Virus record (IMG/VR): IMGVR_UViG_3300020478_000038
Coordinates: 1-31,365 of that record
Length of the DNA stretch: 31,365 bases
Source: a virus
Reading direction: 5' to 3' (one strand)
Every line of letters begins with the position of its first letter. Positions within the stretch are counted from its first letter, which is position 1. The translations under genes were made by a program, and so were the position numbers. Shown piece by piece: positions 1 through 30,812 of this stretch. The notes under the pieces are model-generated. The model was given only the letters and a program-made list of their open reading frames with translations. It was not told the origin of the DNA and ran no database searches.

Positions 1-116
1 AGTTTCTCCTTCAATATGTGTACGTCCTTGCTACTCATAGTGCATGACTCGGGACGCAAATTGATATGGTTAAATCTACCAATGAGATGTATAAGTTCAG
101 CACTATTTAAATTCAA
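1..116 (-). CDS. Small early protein, partial (runs off left edge)
   Basis: The frame is open from a TTG at 116-114 to the window edge (38 codons seen). A perfect GGAGG ribosome binding site at 121-125 lies four bases upstream, which is why I chose the TTG; an internal ATG at about 39 is the alternative. The visible peptide has no motif I recognise and contains a Ser-Lys-Asp-Val stretch encoded by one of the CAAGGAC motifs. It is the last of the chain of tiny early genes and is preceded by a double hairpin at 143-181. The product is unknown; the Shine-Dalgarno sequence is the main support. Confidence 0.5.
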   Translation of the reverse strand, partial: MNLNSAELIHLIGRFNHINLRPESCTMSSKDVHILKEK

Positions 117-142
117 TTAACCTCCATAAGATAGGTGTGCTA

Positions 143-181
143 AGGGATATGAATCCCTCATCCAACCCACGCATGGGCTGG
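143..181 (-). other. Double hairpin between two small early genes
   Basis: Reading the minus strand, an 8-bp stem (CCAGCCCA / TGGGTTGG, one G-T pair, loop TGCG, 162-181) is followed after 3 nt by a 6-bp stem (AGGGAT / ATCCCT, loop TCAT, 143-158). The pair sits between the stop of the 192-413 gene and the start at 116. Its layout matches the two-structure units at the other early junctions, but the first element here is a plain hairpin and not tRNA-like. Confidence 0.7.
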
Positions 182-191
182 AGGAGAGAAT

Positions 192-413
192 CTATTTAGT
201 AGATGTAGTCTTCTTCTTTGGTGTTACTTCTTTCTCAAGAGATTTCTTTACTATGTCTTGAGCAAACTTGAGCATAGTCTCAGGCTTGACACCATCAATA
301 ACTACACGATCCTCATAGTCTCTACTGATAACCAAACCACTGTGCTCCTCGCAGTACCAGATCTGTGCGTCCTTGAGGTAGTACTCGTGTGTTGATTCGA
401 ATGTTAAAGCCAT
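192..413 (-). CDS. Small early hypothetical protein, 73 aa
   Basis: I start this gene at the ATG at 413; the frame is also open to a TTG at 431. Neither start has a clear ribosome binding site. The protein is mixed charged, with a central beta-like segment (tyrosines, VVID) and a very lysine/threonine-rich C-terminal tail of about 15 residues that suggests nucleic-acid or RNA polymerase contact, although that is only inference. I do not recognise the family. It is downstream of the 92-aa gene and is separated from it by two hairpins (433-451 and 457-486). Early T7-like genes in this position usually encode small host-takeover proteins. Confidence 0.6.
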   Translation of the reverse strand: MALTFESTHEYYLKDAQIWYCEEHSGLVISRDYEDRVVIDGVKPETMLKFAQDIVKKSLEKEVTPKKKTTSTK

Positions 414-432
414 GAATGAATTGATAAACAAC

Positions 433-486
433 GAAGGGTGTTGAGTCCTTCATCAAGCCAAGTATACCCAAGTGGATATACATGGC
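433..486 (-). other. Double hairpin upstream of the 73-aa gene
   Basis: On the minus strand, 486-457 folds into a long stem: GCCA/TGGC, one T-T mismatch, then GTATATCC/GGGTATAC (one T-G pair) with loop ACTT. After 5 nt a second stem GAAGG/CCTTC (433-437 with 447-451) follows, and the ATG lies about 19 nt further on. It repeats the strong-structure plus short-hairpin layout seen at the other early junctions. Confidence 0.65.
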
Positions 487-498
487 AAGAGGAAAGAA

Positions 499-777
499 TC
501 AATTAAACGCACGCGCATAAGCTCGGTCATAGATGACACGTGCTTGCTTGCCTACGTTCATGATGTCCTTGGTAATTGCACGCCATTCAGTGAGATGTAT
601 ATCCCAGCGTGTGCGTACGTCCTTGATGTAACTTTGAGGACTAATAAGTGTTGGCTTATCTACCTCAAAGAGTAAACAATGTCCTTGTAATGTACTAGCA
701 ATCTCAGCTAACTTAGCTCGCGTGAGTTTCTTATCAGTGAGATCAATAGATACATTGAGTGCGTCCTTGTAGTTCAT
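499..777 (-). CDS. Small early hypothetical protein, 92 aa
   Basis: The ATG at 777 overlaps the TGA of the 23-aa ORF just upstream (TCATGA), so translation is probably coupled. The protein is basic and mostly helical by composition, with an LTDKKLTRAKLAEIAS stretch near residues 13-28 and an arginine-rich C-terminus. I recognise no catalytic motif. Four CAAGGAC motifs fall inside it, read in two different frames. The position in the early chain suggests a small host-interaction or DNA-metabolism accessory protein, without further evidence. Confidence 0.65.
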   Translation of the reverse strand: MNYKDALNVSIDLTDKKLTRAKLAEIASTLQGHCLLFEVDKPTLISPQSYIKDVRTRWDIHLTEWRAITKDIMNVGKQARVIYDRAYARAFN

Positions 778-845
778 GAGTCGAAGTGGAATACAGCGAG
801 GTATGTCAATACAAGTGGCAGCAAAGCTACAGGTAATGCAAGCAT
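774..845 (-). CDS. Hydrophobic 23-aa micropeptide
   Basis: ATG at 845-843 opens a 23-codon frame made almost entirely of Leu, Ala, Val and Pro for about 18 residues, ending in a short charged tail. It would form a single membrane-spanning peptide. Its TGA overlaps the ATG of the next gene at 777. A competing ATG at 850, closer to the GAGAGG in the 3' arm of the upstream hairpin, gives only seven codons and could be a leader peptide. Too short to call firmly; the start/stop overlap and the all-hydrophobic content support it. Confidence 0.4.
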   Translation of the reverse strand: MLALPVALLPLVLTYLAVFHFDS

Positions 846-856
846 GACATGATTAA

Positions 857-873
857 CCTCTCTCATTGAGAGG
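857..873 (-). promoter_or_regulatory. AATGA-loop hairpin 1 (5' leader)
   Basis: Minus strand CCTCTC-AATGA-GAGAGG, a perfect 6-bp stem. It begins 3 nt after the tRNA-Asp 3' end and stops 6 nt before an ATG. The 3' arm holds the only SD-like sequence (GAGAGG), so opening of the hairpin could control initiation. Two other hairpins in this operon have the same loop with different stems. Confidence 0.7.
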
Positions 874-876
874 CAA

Positions 877-948
877 CGGTCCATGCGGGAATCGAACCCG
901 CATTACTAGCGTGACAAGCTAGCGTACTAACCGTTATACGAATGGACC
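877..948 (-). tRNA. tRNA-Asp (anticodon GUC)
   Basis: A complete cloverleaf reads on the minus strand from 948 to 877. It has acceptor GGTCCAT/ATGGACC, D-stem GTAT/GTAC with a GG-containing loop, anticodon stem CTAGC/GCTAG, loop TTGTCAC with anticodon GUC after U33, a 4-nt variable loop, T-stem GCGGG/CCCGC and T-loop TTCGATT. The discriminator base is G, as expected for aspartate. CCA is not encoded. It is the only full canonical tRNA in the window. It sits between two small early genes and is followed after 3 nt by a hairpin, so it may also serve as an mRNA processing site. Confidence 0.95.
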
Positions 949-979
949 AGTAAAGGACTGGTGTGTCCTTGGTATTTGT

Positions 980-1261
980 TTATACAAACTCAGGTAATTG
1001 TGGACCGAAGTCATATGGCTGTGATCCATACCCAACTAACTCAGCTCTATCTGCATGTACACAGCACTGATTGACAAAAAATCCAAGTGAAGTTAGTGGA
1101 TTAAATAACACTTGAGCTATTGCTCTAGCTGATACATTCTCATACTCATACTCATATCCATTCTTGAAAGTAACTAAAGCCTTACGTGCTAATAGATCTA
1201 CCTTCAAGTCCTTGATAGCAGCAGATGTACGAGTTGGAACTGTGATATACATGTTGATCAT
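980..1261 (-). CDS. KTSC-like domain small early protein, 93 aa
   Basis: Residues about 28-67 fit the KTSC pattern. A beta-strand with an F-x-N-G turn is followed by Y-x-Y-x-x-V, then a helix ending in L-x-x-x-x-S-x-G-x-F-x-N. KTSC domains are small, occur in phage and bacterial proteins, and are often linked to nucleic-acid functions; the exact role is not known. Two ATGs three codons apart (1261 and 1252) are both possible; neither has a strong ribosome binding site. It lies between the minihelix/hairpin unit (1285-1342) and tRNA-Asp, with a short noncoding gap that holds a CAAGGAC motif. Confidence 0.7.
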   Translation of the reverse strand: MINMYITVPTRTSAAIKDLKVDLLARKALVTFKNGYEYEYENVSARAIAQVLFNPLTSLGFFVNQCCVHADRAELVGYGSQPYDFGPQLPEFV

Positions 1262-1284
1262 GTTGATAAGTAAGTGAACAATTA

Positions 1285-1301
1285 AGGGATGTAATATCCC
1301 T
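1285..1301 (-). promoter_or_regulatory. Leader hairpin of the KTSC-like gene
   Basis: Minus strand AGGGAT-ATTAC-ATCCCT, a perfect 6-bp stem with a 5-nt loop. It starts 2 nt after the tRNA-like minihelix and 23 nt before the ATG at 1261. It occupies the same place as the AATGA-loop hairpins of neighbouring genes but has a different loop. Confidence 0.65.
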
Positions 1302-1303
1302 AA

Positions 1304-1342
1304 GCTTGAGGCAGGAATCGAACCTGCCTTACACCATCAAGC
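1304..1342 (-). ncRNA. tRNA-like minihelix (acceptor-like stem plus T-arm)
   Basis: On the minus strand GCTTGA (1342-1337) pairs with TCAAGC (1309-1304). Directly stacked on it is a textbook T-arm: GGCAGG/CCTGCC with loop TTCGATT. The two stems give 12 stacked pairs, the same total as the acceptor plus T-stem of a tRNA; an 8-nt bulge replaces the D and anticodon arms. The TGA stop of the 100-aa gene lies inside the 5' strand of the acceptor-like stem. Such minihelices are known minimal substrates for RNase P and for RNase Z. A leftover tRNA fragment or attachment-site core is the alternative. Confidence 0.65.
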
Positions 1343-1639
1343 AACTACGCTTTCAAACTCATTGAGTTTTGTTTCGCAATAGATTTCAACTACTAACCAA
1401 ACTGAATTGTTGATTAAGTTATTCACTGAATATGGAGGTCTTTCTTCAATGAAGAATTCATACCCGTAGTTGTCCTCGATATAACTCTCGATATCGTCCT
1501 CATGTTCAAAGAAGAAGCGACGTATATCTCCGTAGTAAATAAAGTCAGAGATTCCTTGACTCATCCCGTAATGAGATATGTCTTTTACTTCATCAATGTC
1601 AGTGAATCTTTCATCGAGAGCATCAGTTAAACGTGACAT
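1337..1639 (-). CDS. Acidic small early protein, 100 aa
   Basis: The frame is open upstream to a GTG at 1693, but that codon lies inside the T-arm of a tRNA-like element. The ATG at 1639, 12 nt past the AATGA-loop hairpin, is the better start. The protein is acidic and rich in Asp, Glu, Tyr and Phe, with an aromatic central part (residues about 30-70). I recall similar small acidic proteins as conserved cyanophage hypotheticals, without assigned function. Acidic early proteins of T7-like phages are often inhibitors of host enzymes or DNA mimics; that is inference only. Its stop codon lies in the minihelix at 1304-1342. Confidence 0.7.
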   Translation of the reverse strand: MSRLTDALDERFTDIDEVKDISHYGMSQGISDFIYYGDIRRFFFEHEDDIESYIEDNYGYEFFIEERPPYSVNNLINNSVWLVVEIYCETKLNEFESVVA

Positions 1640-1651
1640 GTTTAATAAGAA

Positions 1652-1670
1652 GCTACTCTCATTGAGTAGC
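1652..1670 (-). promoter_or_regulatory. AATGA-loop hairpin 2 (5' leader)
   Basis: Minus strand GCTACTC-AATGA-GAGTAGC, a perfect 7-bp stem. It begins 4 nt after the tRNA-like element and ends 12 nt before the ATG at 1639. The loop is identical to hairpins 1 and 3 while the stem is different, which points to selection on structure and loop. Confidence 0.75.
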
Positions 1671-1674
1671 AATA

Positions 1675-1719
1675 GTTGCGAGGGGAATTGCACCCCTCCT
1701 TGCGCTATTACGCAGCAAC
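1675..1719 (-). ncRNA. tRNA-like element with T-arm
   Basis: Minus strand: GTTGC (1719-1715) can pair with GCAAC (1679-1675). A T-arm follows inside it, stem AGGGG/CCCCT with 7-nt loop TGCAATT, keeping the C and A of the conserved T-loop. Between them a short arm TGCG/CGCA with loop TAATAG contains the TAA stop of the 81-aa gene. One C is unpaired between T-stem and acceptor-like stem. It is less perfect than the two neighbouring elements, so the closing stem is the uncertain part; the T-arm itself is clear. Confidence 0.5.
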
Positions 1720-1953
1720 ATCTGTTAATTCAGTAGGATCAATTTGATTTCTTAGATCTTCTAAAGCACACTGCAATTCCTCAAGAATTGGATACTTTTC
1801 TACGACCTCCCACCAATCATCCTCATCAACTTGATCAAGAAATCTTTCATAGTATTTGTTAACTGTTTTAGTTAATCTCAATACTTCTGTGATCTCTTCC
1901 ATCGCATCAATGCGTTCAGATAGGTTTACAAACTGAGCAGAATTAGTAGACAT
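1708..1953 (-). CDS. Acidic small early protein, 81 aa
   Basis: The ATG at 1953 is 13 nt past an AATGA-loop hairpin whose 3' arm carries AAGG. The protein is strongly acidic (runs such as VDEDDWWEVVEKYP near residues 43-56) and predicted mainly helical, with heptad-like leucines in both halves, so a small coiled-coil or helical hairpin is likely. No family recognised. It lies second in the early chain after the 68-aa gene, and its TAA is embedded in a tRNA-like fold. Host-takeover or DNA-mimic roles are possible but unproven. Confidence 0.7.
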   Translation of the reverse strand: MSTNSAQFVNLSERIDAMEEITEVLRLTKTVNKYYERFLDQVDEDDWWEVVEKYPILEELQCALEDLRNQIDPTELTDVAA

Positions 1954-1966
1954 GATTAATAACTAA

Positions 1967-1983
1967 CCTTGCTCATTGCAAGG
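1967..1983 (-). promoter_or_regulatory. AATGA-loop hairpin 3 (5' leader)
   Basis: Minus strand CCTTGC-AATGA-GCAAGG, a perfect 6-bp stem with the same loop as hairpins 1 and 2. It begins 5 nt after the tRNA-like element at 1989-2031 and ends 13 nt before the ATG at 1953. Confidence 0.75.
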
Positions 1984-1988
1984 CAATT

Positions 1989-2031
1989 GAAAGAGGAGGA
2001 TTTGATCCTCAGCTACACGCTGTACTCTTCC
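1989..2031 (-). ncRNA. 43-nt miniature tRNA-like element
   Basis: Minus strand: GGAAGAG (2031-2025) pairs with CTCTTTC (1995-1989), seven pairs with one G-U. Immediately inside are a 3-bp mini-arm TAC/GTA (loop AGCGT), a 3-nt linker GCT, and a T-arm-like stem GAGGA/TCCTC. Read as 4 bp the T-arm has a 7-nt loop ATCAAAT that keeps the conserved T, C and A. The T-stem joins the acceptor strand with no gap, giving 7+5 stacked pairs exactly as in a tRNA. The TAG stop of the 68-aa gene lies in the mini-arm. There is no anticodon arm, so it cannot decode. Confidence 0.6.
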
Positions 2032-2219
2032 CAATATTCCTGAAGCTCATCAGGATCAGTAATACTTTGACTATCCACGTAGTAGTGATCACCTAGTCCT
2101 GAACTGGATTTATCCCAGCTATTGTTAATAACATCAAGGACTAACTGCGAACAGTTAGGTGATACCAATGCAACAGGACGTGTGTGTCCTTGAGGTGTGA
2201 ATGGTACTAATTTTTTCAT
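2013..2219 (-). CDS. First sizeable early protein, 68 aa
   Basis: The frame is open upstream to 2330 but passes through the tRNA-like element and a hairpin. The ATG at 2219 (Met-Lys-Lys-Leu start), about 22 nt past the tRNA-like fold in an AT-rich leader, is the better start. The C-terminal third is acidic (DPDELQEYWEEY). There is one CAAGGAC motif, here read in a different frame (Gln-Gly-His) from the Lys-Asp copies in other genes. No family recognised. Function unknown; the position fits an early takeover protein. Confidence 0.6.
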   Translation of the reverse strand: MKKLVPFTPQGHTRPVALVSPNCSQLVLDVINNSWDKSSSGLGDHYYVDSQSITDPDELQEYWEEYSV

Positions 2220-2241
2220 GAGAAAATATATATAAACAAAC

Positions 2242-2299
2242 GGGGATGAGCAGGTCTTGAACCTGCACTCTTGAAGAGAGTGAGCCGAACGGCATCCCC
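2242..2299 (-). tRNA. Reduced tRNA-like gene (possible tRNA-Glu UUC, or pseudo-tRNA)
   Basis: Minus strand 2299-2242: acceptor GGGGATG/CATCCCC is a perfect 7 bp. A tiny D-like arm CC-GTTC-GG follows, then an anticodon-like arm with loop TCTTCAA (triplet UUC at the anticodon position, but C instead of the universal U33), and a T-arm GCAGG/CCTGC with loop TTCAAGA. There is no variable loop and the total is 58 nt. The missing D-arm and variable loop resemble mitochondrial minimal tRNAs. Decoding ability is doubtful. As a processing signal upstream of the 68-aa gene it would work equally well without decoding. Confidence 0.5.
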
Positions 2300-2463: not shown

Positions 2464-2541
2464 GGAGAGAGTTGTAGTTAAGTACGAGACTCTCCTCACC
2501 CTTTCAGGGAGAGTCGAGTACGTACGTAAACAACTCTTCTC
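2464..2541 (-). other. Long nested imperfect inverted repeat
   Basis: The core GACTCTCC (2488-2495) pairs with GGAGAGTC (2508-2515). Outside it, symmetrical GA/GA mismatches are followed by GTAC/GTAC, and then GAGAGAGTTGT (about 2465-2475) pairs with ACAACTCT-TCTC (about 2530-2541). The fold lies just upstream of the first early genes. T7 processes its early transcript with RNase III at extended, imperfect stem-loops, and this structure would fit that role or a late terminator; there is no T-run. Confidence 0.6.
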
Positions 2542-20200: not shown

Positions 20201-21101
20201 CAACATCAACTGTTTGACCACCTAGCTGTCTATCAATACTTAAGATACGCTCTTCAACAAGTTCTTGTTGTCCAGCTTCTTTTATTTGAGCATCAACATT
20301 AGCTTTCCTTGCAGCTGCTATCTCATCTCCTTTTGGTAAGTTACCAGCTCTATTCCAGATAATTCCAATCAATGTATCCAGACCTTTCTCTAGATACATC
20401 TCTTCTAAGATATTCTTGAATTTCTTAAATAAAGGATGATCTGTATCTTTAGTAGCGAATGGTCCGAGAACAACATCCATAAATGGAGCTTTCTCTACAA
20501 TCTCTGCAGATAAACTATCTCCATCAGTGTAGGTAGATGTTGCAGCTACTAGACCAGTTGTTGCTAATCCTCCAGCTGCAGGTACACCAGCTGTTCCAGC
20601 AACTACTGCTGCAGGTACACCAAGTGTTCCATAGTGAACTACACCCTCAGTAAATTTACCCCACCAAGTTCTAACGATTGGATCTTCTACATTCTTGAGA
20701 GGATCCCAATCAGGTGTATAACCTTTAGATGGATCAATATCCTCTCCACGAGCTGCATCATATAGACGTTCAGGTAAAGTTAAGATTGAATCAATAGCAC
20801 CAATAGCACCTTTTTGAATAGCTGCACCGTATTCTTCACCTGCATCTGCGAGGTTGTAATCCTTTGGATCTTTCTCTAGACGTGTTTTGTAAACCTCCTT
20901 TCTTTCTTCTTTAGTGCCAAACTTGTTTAGAGTTTCATCTATGTCAGCAACCATCTCACCAGCTTCAGTAATCATGTTCTGTAAGCTGGCTTGTTGCTCT
21001 ACCTGTTCTGCACTTTCTTCAGCTGCTATTTGTTGCTCTATATAGTTGGCACGCTCCATTGCGCCCAAGTTTGGACCCGTGGGTTCCGTGTTTGTAGGCA
21101 T
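17214..21101 (-). CDS. Large internal virion protein (T7 gp16 position)
   Basis: 1295 aa, similar in size to T7 gp16 (1318). The position directly before the fibre gene fits the ejectosome protein that enters the host envelope first. The N-terminal 110 residues are acidic and helical. A hydrophobic Ala/Gly/Val/Pro segment (about 150-185) could contact membrane. The rest is helical. I do not see the lytic transglycosylase motif that T7 gp16 carries at its N-terminus, so wall opening may rely on another protein. Confidence 0.88.
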   Translation of the reverse strand: MPTNTEPTGPNLGAMERANYIEQQIAAEESAEQVEQQASLQNMITEAGEMVADIDETLNKFGTKEERKEVYKTRLEKDPKDYNLADAGEEYGAAIQKGAIGAIDSILTLPERLYDAARGEDIDPSKGYTPDWDPLKNVEDPIVRTWWGKFTEGVVHYGTLGVPAAVVAGTAGVPAAGGLATTGLVAATSTYTDGDSLSAEIVEKAPFMDVVLGPFATKDTDHPLFKKFKNILEEMYLEKGLDTLIGIIWNRAGNLPKGDEIAAARKANVDAQIKEAGQQELVEERILSIDRQLGGQTVDVDVVPDKPDITGTTTAGALPEGTTPKPKQPTTEFRGHKNKPFADPWQGSPTSTAPPAEIHRQLNQIDTDPSAKGGSTDSPLTAAQLHRMSTENGMPIEELEKMGKELFTDARLQEIKAEAKAANKSFREYFEPAYQRYKEMMGRNWQEMSADEFWGPLEELSKDKLSGYEIWAAGENLLAADLVNSALFKNLRDHALAAREINNFGDVFAVDGPMKKIGDKLVIGLGNVKKSRYLWGVMGRKMRKGMTVSDADVAKRLADIHGETKASVELMNKFMKESESKELANGILEIFSQADEIQTWMDLDSYMRKLLRGGEIKGKTRTGQIIRDMQGILIHSRLSSPKTPQRALWGTGFNSYLTQFETLLGAGIRAGRTGDTRAARIQLAKFKRMYEVLPEAWDTMMSKMNSYFSSDVTTIKNRYSTRNHKDFDWKVYDAWTEQRGNFSDKLASGFAHILDKIQKSNIAGWSSRTLAAADDAHAVIQSRARARELAFIDALEKEARNEISEVTPEVLKRAEDHYYSKLLDENGDIDTTKDAFLDYQFKESTLMNGLGDRLATLQSAFNRFPQLVPFFNFIRPSINDFILDTKRMPGISLLHKEMRSVFMAKPDNIKDLAKYGITNVDELRNAQQMWQGRLITGTVFTKLFIDKYLAGELSGDGPADTTIRKSWEDAGWQRNKMWFGDLGVNVDLLEPFNTLGKAVADIGDNMYLMGPEWADQRFQTIPLIVAGSITNKSMMTGLNQMVDVFKMRPGQLEKIVGGIANDFVPLAGARNALGRTINPYMRELNSDIRDTIRNRNLSSEYLAKDPLPKKYNILNGNPAGSRFPLLRMIDAVTPFAVTTGNTKAVWLLKQSNFDERTSTLSAPSVNGIRLSLREENDIRSKFQKAIGDSRVNGKSLEDRLIKLSKNKQILNSINEMQKDMKNGEFDKDPGKSYYHNKQIKQLFEEHRQLGWSSILNDPEVKALYDETILIKQKEADSLKRTSEFVEQLLDPRRNH

Positions 21102-24218: not shown

Positions 24219-27200
24219 CTCCCTCCCAAAAGGATGAATATAATGTGCAAGGTGAAGGATGATTAGCTTCTAAAGATAATTTAAAATCTCCATTCCTTGC
24301 ATAAACTGGAATAGTTGTTTTTGTACTATCTAAGAAAAGGTAACGATTCTCTTCAAAACCATAATTTAAACTTGCTTCATGGTTTTGTATCCAATCATTA
24401 CGTCTCTTTCTTTTTAGTCTTGTCTGGTGATAACCAGTTGGACCTAAGTTTAAATCTACTCTATGTATAATTGTAGATGCTCTTGTATCAGCTCTTACTG
24501 CATCGCCTTCTGATTGCTTAAGATAAGGTACTGGAAATTCAACCTTCATATCATAGGTATAACCTGCATATACAGTAGATGTAGACCAATCTCCTTTAAC
24601 TGTAAAATCACTACCTTCACTTAATATTGGATAATCAGCTTGTCCCTTCATTGGACCTGCTGTAGCAAAGATAGTAAACTTCTTATTACCTGCTACAACA
24701 AAATTCTCAGGTTGACTAAAGGTTGTTAGCTTAGTAGATGAACTATAAGTCTGTCCTGTTAGTGGTAATAAGTTATCCATATGAAGAGGATAATCAACTA
24801 ATTGAGAATCTAACTTTGGTTGATTCTTTAGATCAATCTTTTGTAGTTGTATATCTTGGTTATCAACTCTAATAACTGCATAATAGATTCCATCAACAAG
24901 AGCATGGAAAATTGTATTACCATGCATCTTCCATCTAAACCAAGAAGCTAGTATTCTCTTCTCTCCAGTATTAAACCATTTATAACCATAGATATCTTCA
25001 TTAGTATCACTAGTAGCAAATAGAACTAGCCCATCTTCTTTTGACTCAGCTACTGAATTAATAGTAGTAGGTAGTAAAGAAGATACAAGTTTACTTTGTT
25101 CTATAACTTCTGTTTGTGATGGATTTGAGATGTTTGTCATCTCCATAAACTTAGTATGACTTCCTACGTTATTAACAAAACCTATTGTCGTACCTAATGA
25201 AAATGGTTCAACTAGAGGATTGTAATTAAATGTAGAGATACTTTGAATCTTAGCTGTTTCAGGTGATAAGACATCATTATCTGTAGTCAGTAAGAATTGC
25301 TTCTCTTTACTAAATAGAAGTAATCCTTTTTGTGTAGATATACTATGTACTAAAGTAGCTGGTTTTGTATCTCCCACTGATAGATCGATACTATCTGCAG
25401 GACTGATAGTCATTGCACTCTTAGCCCAGAAATTAAAGTCATCTCCAGGTTGAGAAAGAATAATACTATCGTTAGCTAATAAGGCTAATCTATTCCTATA
25501 GAAGGCTAAGTTCTGTATTGGATGACCAGCTACAAGATCATAAGTATCCTCTCCAAAAGCCTTTGATAAAACAGCGTTAAATTTGGAATAGTGAGGGTTG
25601 AATATAAAACTAGGGCTAGGATTAGTGTTATCATCACCAACAATTTTACCTTGCCAATCAATTGGTTTCAGTTCAAAGTGTTTAGGTCTAGTTCCTCTAG
25701 CATTTACCTTAACTAGCTGATGAGGCATTGTATCAGCTGCAAATTCTGTACGACTACCTGGTTTTACACATTCTTCCCAAACCCCTGGACCATCATCAGG
25801 TGCAGAGTTTGATTTAAATTGTAGGTAATAATCATCTTTATCAGATGTACTATTCACCACCTTCACTACATAACCATGTCTACAATGAGTAGGTAGATCA
25901 CCTACATCATTAACTTCATCAGTAAGTACATTAATTAATTTAGAATCTGATGCTGTTACAGTCCAATCTAGTTCGTTTGGATATTCAGTATCTGCTACTC
26001 CATTTATTTTATCACTGGTATACATCCTAAAATAAATACCATTACCTATTCTTTTAGCGTGCCATGGCCAACCTTCACCTGTTCTTGGATTGTTATTGTT
26101 GTATTGATAAGTTGGCTTCATATCTCTAGGATTCAGTTTCCTATCAAATTCAGCCATAATAGATTCTAAAATTCCATCAGCAGTTACTGTCTCATCAGCT
26201 GAAGCTGAAGTAGGTTCAGGTCTTATTGCTCCAAGACTTGCTTCATAACCTATTACTTCATGATCAGTAACCATTATCTTATAATTGGTTGCAGATGGAT
26301 CTGTATAATTTGGAGTATCAGAAGTTTTTATATCTGAACCACCCATAACAACAAAGAAATAGTCACCTTTCTTCCAACCTTCTCCACCATGTAAAAGCTT
26401 AACCTCTACATTGTAGTCGCAATGATATTCTTCCCCTACTGCTTTAGGAGTACCAGTATTTTTTAATTCAAATCTTAAGTTTAACTTATCGTGATAATTC
26501 AGTATTTGACCACTATTAGAATCTTTTGAAAAATTCATAGGGTAAGGTTTACAAAGACTACCACTGTGATAAGGCAAGGATGTTGCAGTAATCCCTTCAA
26601 AACTATTCTCAGGATCAGATTGTAGTGGTCCGTACTTATTCCTATCTGAGTCGTTTTTAGCTAAGTAAGACTTTCCAGTTGGGTTAATAGTGAATATTTC
26701 TCTAGCAGTATATCTACAAGCACCATCTTTGGTTTCATTAGGTGGGTTTGCAGCCCATCGCTCTGTAACTGTACCATCTGCATTAGCAGCTACTGCAGCA
26801 GACGTATTTTTATCTTGAATCTCACCCTTTGGTCCCTTTGTAAGAGTCGGGAAAGTTGTACCAGTAACAGGTGTTCCCCACCATTGCACACTTAATTTTG
26901 TAGCTCTAGATATACTTCTTTGTTCACCACCTTTCTCATGAAAGTTAAGACCATACTGTTTGTTATATGCTATTTGCTTTAACTCTATATATGCTTCCTT
27001 TGGTCGTCTATTTCCGTGATACAAAATCGTACTTTCTCCAGGCATCTTCGTCTTTTTATATTCATGACCTCCACGTGTTGCATTTGAATCCAACATGGAA
27101 TCATCAATACAAGTATCACGTGTCAGATTACTCATCTCAGTACGTCTCTCTCTATTCGTTATAAATGTATAATCATTTATATTTAATACCTGAATAGAGT

Positions 27201-29948: not shown

Positions 29949-30134
29949 TTATATGTATTTTAAAATGTATTGAAGGTATAAATCATCATCGCTAGCAATT
30001 TTAATTCGAAGTTTTGTGGTCTATCCCACCGTCTAGACGGCTGATGAGTATCCTCGTAAGGGTCAAAAGCCAAATTACAGAGAGGTCCGACACTGAGGTG
30101 CCTCTCTGCTATGGAAGTTCACATGAAGAACTTC
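29949..30134 (-). other. Structured leader upstream of the capsid gene
   Basis: Three inverted repeats lie between the small membrane protein and the capsid gene. They are CCGTC-TA-GACGG (30029-30040), CAGAGAGG/CCTCTCTG (30078-30085 with 30101-30108, inner CAC/GTG) and GAAGTTC/GAACTTC (30114-30120 with 30128-30134). The last two lie within the coding part of the 40-aa ORF. No T-runs follow. They may set mRNA processing and stability of the capsid message. Confidence 0.6.
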
Positions 30135-30754: not shown

Positions 30755-30778
30755 CCTAAGCCCCGTTCCATGCTTAGG
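30755..30778 (-). other. Hairpin downstream of psbA
   Basis: CCTAAGC/GCTTAGG, a perfect 7-bp stem with a 10-nt loop, between the psbA stop and the DUF4278-like start. A second weaker stem CGTCC/GGACG lies nearer the stop. There is no T-run, so an mRNA 3'-stabilising or processing function is more likely than termination. Confidence 0.55.
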
Positions 30779-30812
30779 CTTCATGCGTCCCGAAGGATGA
30801 ACGGACGTATCG

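Follow-up and report, generated by a model that had tools for sequence, protein, structure and literature searches.

Conserved tRNA-like elements and adjacent hairpins at early gene junctions of T7-like cyanophages: candidate sites of host tRNA 3'-end processing

The early operon of a T7-like cyanophage carries folded RNA elements at its gene junctions, which raises the question of what these structures are and whether host tRNA maturation could act on them. The window analysed here is a viral DNA stretch of 31,365 nt (IMG/VR record IMGVR_UViG_3300020478_000038). On its minus strand, within positions 1-2300, a tRNA-Asp occupies one junction and tRNA-like folds occupy four others (J1-J4); at J2-J7 a second hairpin (structure 2) begins 1-5 nt past the first fold (structure 1), and J1, which sits before the first gene, is without one. 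All genes of the operon lie on this strand: gene 1 (2013..2219; 68 aa, no known family, homologues found), gene 2 (1708..1953; 81 aa), gene 3 (1337..1639; 100 aa, PF23864 DUF7222), gene 4 (980..1261; 93 aa, PHROG 7365, weak KTSC), gene 5 (774..845), encoding a 23-aa hydrophobic peptide whose start is conserved in relatives, gene 6 (499..777; 92 aa), which overlaps the gene 5 stop, gene 7 (192..413; 73 aa, PHROG 25656), and the start of gene 8 (1..116), which begins with TTG after GGAGG (121-125) and continues beyond the window.

The first folds range from a whole tRNA to strongly reduced forms. J1 (2242..2299) is a reduced tRNA with a 7-bp acceptor (GGGGAUG/CAUCCCC), a T arm (GCAGG-UUCAAGA-CCUGC) and vestigial D and anticodon hairpins. 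Structure 1 of J2 (1989..2031) joins a 7-bp acceptor (GGAAGAG/CUCUUUC) to a 5-bp stem (GAGGA/UCCUC), overlaps the gene 1 stop codon and carries the pentaloop UCAAA, a variant T-loop; in its family of about 20 loci the pentaloop is UCRAA and the loop-closing pair covaries. Structure 1 of J3 (1675..1719), overlapping the gene 2 stop codon, consists of an acceptor (GUUGC/GCAAC, 5 bp), a D-like hairpin and a T arm (stem GAGGGG/CCCCUC, 6 bp; loop UGCAAUU); it is matched by CM R1 (E=0.0022), and a related T-arm with hairpin is located at 1021-1067 of P-SSP7. At J4 (1304..1342) a 6-bp acceptor (GCUUGA/UCAAGC) and a 6-bp T stem (GGCAGG/CCUGCC; loop UUCGAUU, linker UGGUGUAA) add up to 12 bp, with the gene 3 stop codon inside; this element scores 53.8 bits against CM R2, whose training set includes the J4 sequence itself. 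J5 (877..948) is a complete tRNA-Asp (GTC) with CCA not encoded, called by ARAGORN and Rfam (65.9 bits). The second hairpins of J2-J5 have 6-7 bp each: CCUUGC-AAUGA-GCAAGG at the start of the gene 2 leader (1967..1983), GCUACUC-AAUGA-GAGUAGC (1652..1670), AGGGAU-AUUAC-AUCCCU (1285..1301) and a further hairpin with an AAUGA loop (857..873).

Structure 1 is of a different kind at J6 and J7, where plain hairpins without tRNA-like features are found. At J6 (457..486) it is a 12-bp hairpin with one mismatch, whose sequence differs in relatives while the pairing is kept; the second hairpin (433..451) is weak, with 5 bp, and stronger in relatives (AAGGAUUCAUAUCCUU). At J7 the hairpin CCAGCCCA-UGCG-UGGGUUGG (162..181) is followed by AGGGAU-UCAU-AUCCCU (143..158), which competes with an extended structure 1; in the minimum-energy fold, structure 1 is paired with part of structure 2. 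Assessed as RNase III sites, which are long near-continuous duplexes, both are plain hairpins of 8-12 bp, and any such cleavage is putative. The sequence-only reading had described six two-part junctions and an operon punctuated by tRNA-like signals, so placed that each next message would open with a hairpin. This description is supported, with qualifications for J6 and J7: their first structures are not tRNA-like, the J6 second hairpin is weak and the J7 structures compete.

The minus-strand layout itself was reproduced at the same coordinates, lies far above shuffled expectation and is conserved in relatives. A strict descriptor of a 12-bp stack with a T-loop identified three elements (J1, J4 and J5) in positions 1-2620, against a mean of 0.003 in dinucleotide shuffles of this region (n=1000); the opposite strand and the rest of these positions had no match. 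Conservation of the junction elements is overwhelming. Across 123 related loci, 93 distinct acceptor and T-arm elements were collected on the coding strand; matches with the T-loop numbered 122 on the coding strand and at most 8 on the opposite strand, whereas altered loop motifs, used as a control, gave 5-15 and 3-21, respectively. The elements are present in many genera and in the cultured phages P-SSP7, P-SSP2, 9515-10a, NATL1A-7, S-RIP2, S-TIP37 and P-GSP1. Ahead of the major capsid gene, the window junction carries an ordinary hairpin that is not tRNA-like, in which P-SSP7 differs.

The coaxial stack of acceptor and T stem in a tRNA is 12 bp long. The paired 3' strand is typically 12-13 nt; it measures 11-13 nt in 75 of the 93 elements, with a mode of 12, and the split between T stem and acceptor varies among them (5+7, 6+6, 7+5). 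The length of this stack is what RNase P and RNase Z measure from the elbow (PMC4919913, PMC11996679). Short linkers contain GG in all 27 cases (16.6 expected), whereas the longer ones (13-24 nt) show no enrichment (19/31 vs 19.6 from shuffling), so that the D-loop GG argument is limited to the short-linker class. In the J1 family, ten sequences gathered by protein homology only, pairing amounts to 99.4% and double-sided changes occur at 10 of 17 pairs, and the anticodon loop is not kept. Covariation was also detected in two further element alignments, the rows of which were picked by a descriptor demanding pairing. Thus the folds show both the covariation and the conservation in relatives on which the sequence-only reading had staked its interpretation. 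A hairpin lies within 8 nt of the stack at 51 of 60 distinct junctions (background 18%), and its offset is 1-3 for 49 of these 51.

The two structures belong to different neighbours. For structure 1, similarity tracks the upstream gene (0.77 vs 0.50); for structure 2, it tracks the gene downstream (0.71 vs 0.43). Loose gene clusters gave a weak structure 1 signal, and the comparison was rerun with tighter pairs. The element of gene 1 is found ahead of at least five different genes. As structure 1 goes with the upstream gene and structure 2 with the downstream one, the module boundary is therefore the point of tRNA 3' processing. In 30 of the 47 scored elements the stop codon of the preceding gene falls within the fold, so that cleavage by RNase P would shorten that gene. 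Judged by sequence, the only cut that would fit all elements is the 3' one, and stops so placed speak against the customary order in which RNase P acts first. The original proposal, in which RNase P and RNase Z together release separate, intact messages, is not supported in that form, as the same 30 of 47 stops are incomplete before the acceptor 5' end and would be removed by a canonical RNase P cut.

Beyond these relatives, 2.9 million viral contigs were scanned for a T-loop followed by a hairpin, with a stem requirement of two G-C pairs only. Among the 38 distinct matches, 24 completed the 12-bp stack, compared with 6.8% when the upstream sequence was shuffled. Several were complete tRNAs (Asp-type, Leu) in which the same hairpin comes right after the discriminator base; a true tRNA and a reduced element can stand in for each other ahead of the same hairpins. 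In 84,980 bacterial and archaeal genomes the pattern gave seven scattered matches, about the chance expectation, and none in cyanobacteria; hence it is a viral feature, and a copied host operon signal was rejected on these counts. At gathering threshold, Rfam returned for the window and 11 relatives tRNA genes only, apart from a glutamine-II riboswitch located in the window, and the junction elements, which are not in Rfam 15, are thus not a catalogued family. Only J5 is a full cloverleaf with an anticodon matched by ARAGORN and Rfam; J1-J4 are not, and the short elements are without an anticodon arm. Searches of a library of open-access papers brought up no account of such tRNA-like signals for RNA processing in phages, cyanophages included.

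We consider the best explanation, with a probability of about 0.7, to be that these are phage "t-elements" whose 3' edge is cut by host RNase Z, leaving messages protected by 5' hairpins; the cut, the enzyme and the protection are what we infer from the observed elements. The early operon of T7-like cyanophages would then be a series of cassettes, each with a 5' hairpin, an ORF and a 3' tRNA-like element. The latter would represent the minimal top half of a tRNA, made up of the 12-bp stack of acceptor and T stem, a T-loop, and a short linker that bears GG or a D-like hairpin; now and then a whole tRNA takes its place. The host machinery that matures tRNA 3' ends, most likely RNase Z, would measure from the elbow and cut just past the discriminator position, the base after the stack. 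The downstream message would begin 1-3 nt ahead of its own hairpin, which would shield the 5'-monophosphate end against RNases E and J, and a folded tRNA-like 3' end would stay on the upstream message. Cyanobacteria possess RNases Z, P, E and J (PMC10989914). An RNase Z model matches S. elongatus, and host RNase E is raised by P-SSP7. Against this explanation, human RNase Z disfavours 5'-unprocessed substrates, which makes a 3' cut with no 5' cut questionable, and J1 is without the second hairpin. New 5' ends are predicted in the window at ~2240 (J1), ~1987 (J2), ~1673 (J3), ~1302 (J4) and 876 (J5), and monophosphate 5' ends in P-SSP7 (NC_006882.2) at ~650, ~1047 and ~20681; J6 and J7 would need another nuclease. 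An RNase P cut may occur too and would inactivate the upstream gene for most elements.

In a variant of this explanation, which is not a full alternative, RNase P and RNase Z would both act to excise the element, as in mitochondria, and the loss of the stop would be tolerated or would serve to silence the upstream gene once early translation is over. The geometry is that of a minimal RNase P substrate and both enzymes cut plant and archaeal t-elements, but a 5' cut would yield non-stop messages for most genes, and we regard this variant as doubtful. Less probable still is an uncut, tRNA-shaped roadblock that guards the upstream 3' end or separates the translation of neighbours, the second hairpin acting on translation initiation. 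The folds are stable, and with the stop codon inside in 30 of 47 cases the element is the physical 3' end of the upstream gene; however, a generic block needs neither a T-loop, a 12-bp stack and a D-like GG nor a second hairpin 1-3 nt past the discriminator position, and the slot is also filled by true tRNAs.

Two further explanations concern the DNA and its history. Cassettes shuffle at the element boundary, these phages carry integrases and a tRNA-like attP is known in halovirus HF2, which would suit recombination or integration sites for swapping early gene cassettes. This is very unlikely: an attP occurs once and matches the end of a host tRNA gene exactly, whereas each genome holds several dissimilar, strand-specific elements, and compensatory stem changes are not required of a DNA site. 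Least credible is the chance retention of decaying phage tRNA genes, suggested by the full tRNA-Asp and the reduced J1 tRNA in one operon. Simple decay is rejected because the stems covary; moreover, the 12-bp rule is kept while anticodon loops are lost, and the elements occur in many genera.

In plant mitochondria (for instance, upstream of cox1 or downstream of ccmC) and before the 5S rRNA of Haloferax volcanii, t-elements are likewise tRNA-like, untranslated structures at transcript ends; they are cut by RNase P/RNase Z to form mRNA or rRNA ends, and those of Arabidopsis are not aminoacylated (PMC11658184, PMC4326828). The cyanophage elements share the coaxial acceptor/T arm of about 12 bp with a T-loop (a variant loop at J2; absent at J6 and J7), the terminal position on a coding or structural RNA, as judged by ORF context, and, for the short elements and the J1 family, the lack of a decoding tRNA. 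They differ in occurring in a bacterial virus, as putative processing sites at successive junctions of one operon, and in having the 12-bp stack only, an overlapped upstream stop and an added 5' hairpin. Mitochondrial tRNA punctuation also sets the genes of one polycistronic RNA apart by tRNA structures, but the cyanophage elements are mostly non-functional tRNAs with no translation role except for tRNA-Asp. In the T7 early transcript, host RNase III cuts between the early genes. The putative cyanophage cut would likewise be made by a host nuclease at early gene junctions, although its signal is tRNA-like and not a double-strand hairpin. Synechococcus-type relatives have an unrelated internal-loop hairpin at the equivalent junctions, the 3' strand of which, if cut in the loop, can be modelled to refold into a 5'-terminal hairpin. 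In MALAT1/mascRNA, as mentioned in PMC11658184, an RNA end is set by a tRNA-like element via RNase P and RNase Z; unlike the cyanophage elements, it is a single element in a eukaryotic nuclear long non-coding RNA.

Taken jointly, it seems somewhat probable that each early gene of marine T7-like cyanophages becomes its own protected mRNA through a bacterial-virus form of tRNA punctuation, as an exchangeable one-gene cassette with an RNase Z-cut tRNA mimic and a 5' hairpin, Synechococcus-type phages using an RNase III-like element instead. Several of the elements are in cultured model phages, so the idea is directly testable. If true, host tRNA maturation has been turned into a phage mRNA-processing system, and nature offers minimal substrates of RNase Z and RNase P in which a 12-bp ruler would be held by selection and sequence and stem split would be free to vary; this would also go some way towards accounting for the survival of early messages at a time when P-SSP7 raises host RNase E.

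The 31,365-base record, a virus contig, belongs with T7-like cyanophages, as judged from its terminase, transaldolase and ThyX. Its early operon runs on the minus strand from about position 2600 down to 1 and comprises seven complete, small genes (68, 81, 100, 93, 23, 92 and 73 codons); one more, incomplete gene, the eighth, extends past the window end. Most of these genes have no assigned function. The junction coordinates of the sequence-only reading were correct when checked on the window. Among the seven successive junctions on the minus strand, J1 (2242-2299) carries a reduced tRNA, J5 a complete tRNA-Asp, J3 and J4 an acceptor stem joined through a short linker to a T arm, and J6 and J7 (the latter at 162-181) plain hairpins. 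J2 combines an acceptor stem and a short linker with an arm capped by a UCRAA pentaloop, the closing pair of which covaries in relatives (A/U, U/A, G/C, C/G). A strict descriptor of the tRNA-like element was passed by J1, J4 and J5 and by nothing elsewhere in the window; 1000 dinucleotide shuffles of the early region gave a mean of 0.003 elements.

Several other features of the window were recorded. In the early region the 7-mer CAAGGAC has nine copies on the coding (minus) strand (2192, 1214, 971, 769, 687, 625, 571, 375 and 30) versus one on the other strand (0.16 expected), falling in different reading frames and in a spacer. Close relatives show it as the most enriched 7-mer of their early regions (71 vs 6), and further copies are present in P-SSP7 (7/0), P-SSP2 (8/0) and S-TIP37 (6/0). 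S-TIP37 has an exact copy of a 34-nt, hairpin-containing stretch of the early leader (2485-2518, minus strand); in S-CBP3 and S-CBP4 the identity is 94%. A glutamine-II riboswitch lies at 30755-30806 (minus strand), downstream of psbA and ahead of a 120-aa ORF.

Related loci were gathered by protein homology (early genes and RNA polymerase), independently of RNA structure, and isolates were added, giving 123 loci (1.13 Mb). In this set a first descriptor of the acceptor stem and T arm matched 85 times on the coding strand versus once on the opposite strand, and a more general scoring gave 122 (93 distinct) versus 8, a few of the coding-strand matches, located within genes, probably being due to chance. 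Covariance models placed early-region elements in P-SSP7, P-SSP2, 9515-10a, NATL1A-7, S-RIP2, S-TIP37 and P-GSP1; the first model matched 13 of 19 records at E <= 0.05, and S-CBP4, S-SRP01 and WH11-B had no covariance-model match. P-SSP7 (20639-20680), S-TIP37 (20512-20560) and P-SSP2 (27149-27190) also have a late-region tRNA-like element, placed between a small post-psbA gene and the major capsid gene; its stem sequences differ widely, with 5+7 bp for P-SSP7 and 6+6 bp for S-TIP37. L129 too has such an element immediately ahead of the capsid gene. The highly conserved leader that follows the element, GAGGAUAC...GACGGUGGGA.AGACCACA, is also present in the window at about 30010-30060. In four loci (L008 750, L009 552, L027 4558, L033 1042) an extra minihelix element lies about 110-140 nt past tRNA-Asp and occupies the slot ahead of the hairpin, as if an element had been duplicated or inserted.

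Covariation in relatives, a check named when the sequence-only reading proposed that host tRNA-processing enzymes cut the operon into hairpin-protected mRNAs, is present. In the J1 family, collected via protein homology, 99.4% of cells are paired and both sides have changed in 10 of 17 pairs; shifting the partners by 1-3 columns lowers pairing to 27-45%. Alignments of long-linker and short-linker elements, the rows of which were picked by a descriptor requiring pairing, concur. As the aligned sequences are related, the counts do not stand for independent events. The anticodon-like loop of the J1 family is not conserved, and therefore decoding is not the selected property.

The paired length along the uninterrupted 3' strand is 12 in 34, 13 in 27 and 11-13 in 75 of 93 elements, many 13-long stacks belonging to genuine tRNAs or having gained a single additional pair by chance. 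How the pairs divide between T stem and acceptor differs among elements, with 5+7, 6+6 and 7+5 frequent. GG is found in all 27 linkers of 8-12 nt (16.6 predicted by shuffles); a 4-bp D-like hairpin is frequent in its place in linkers of 14-17 nt, and the longer-linker class has no GG enrichment over shuffles. RNase P and RNase Z clamp a substrate of this shape and, starting at the elbow, measure along its acceptor/T-stem stack (PMC4919913; PMC11996679).

At 51 of 60 distinct junctions, versus 18% in the background, a second hairpin with 5 or more base pairs starts no further than 8 nt from the stack, with an offset of 1-3 in 49 of those 51, and the start codon usually lies 33-45 nt past the stack. 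A scan of viral contigs with a T-loop plus second hairpin as the sole requirement returned 40 stretches, 36 of them bearing T7-like cyanophage genes; a 12-bp stack was completed in 24 of 38 distinct matches versus 6.8% with shuffled upstream sequence. Some matches are complete tRNAs, tRNA-Leu among them, with the hairpin immediately after the discriminator base. The position of the hairpin is thus set by the point of tRNA 3' processing. In bacteria, hairpins lying 1-3 nt from an end made by processing are a well-known means of protection, and the second hairpin may likewise protect the new 5' end of the message.

The upstream stop codon is incomplete before the acceptor start, and often lies inside the acceptor, in 30 of 47 scored elements, which most simply points to a 3' cut as their predicted conserved output; a canonical RNase P cut would yield an upstream message without a stop codon. 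Cyanobacteria encode RNase Z (PMC10989914), as a search in this analysis also supports. No encoded CCA follows the elements, and CCA-less tRNAs are matured by RNase Z (PMC4919913). As a caveat to the 3'-cut reading, human RNase Z disfavours substrates bearing a 5' leader (PMC11996679). t-elements, which are tRNA-like RNA processing signals, are already known from plant mitochondria and haloarchaea (PMC11658184, PMC4326828); a description in phages was not found in the open-licence papers searched, and the phage elements are absent from Rfam 15.

At the equivalent junctions, Synechococcus-type T7-like relatives carry a different conserved intergenic element, GUUACA-CU-[stem]-UC-UGUAGC followed by GCUAC, with 25 copies on the coding strand and none on the opposite strand (L013 850, 1173, 1563; L120 5740, 6130; L121 5966; and in L068, L071, L075, L077, L081, L097, L103, L106, L112 and L114). 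It folds best into a duplex interrupted by a 2x2 internal loop (z about -4.5), the upper stem covaries, and UGUAGC has GCUAC as an alternative partner. At T7 early sites RNase III cuts in the internal loop; by likeness to these sites, a cut proposed here at the same place would put the UGUAGC/GCUAC hairpin at the new 5' end. The element is possibly an RNase III site, its product refolding to form a hairpin at the 5' end. That two elements with no relation to each other would lead to one and the same output supports the idea of processing.

The two structures also appear to travel with different genes. Junction pairs with the upstream gene alone in common have a structure 1 (tRNA-like element or plain hairpin) identity of 0.77 versus 0.50 for unrelated pairs in a small set of 17 pairs, and those sharing the downstream gene alone have a structure 2 (second hairpin) identity of 0.71 versus 0.43. 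Gene 1, the 68-aa first early gene, together with its 3' element precedes at least five different genes across viruses, each carrying its own 5' sequence. As judged from these sequence comparisons, the module boundary of the cassettes coincides with the predicted cleavage point.
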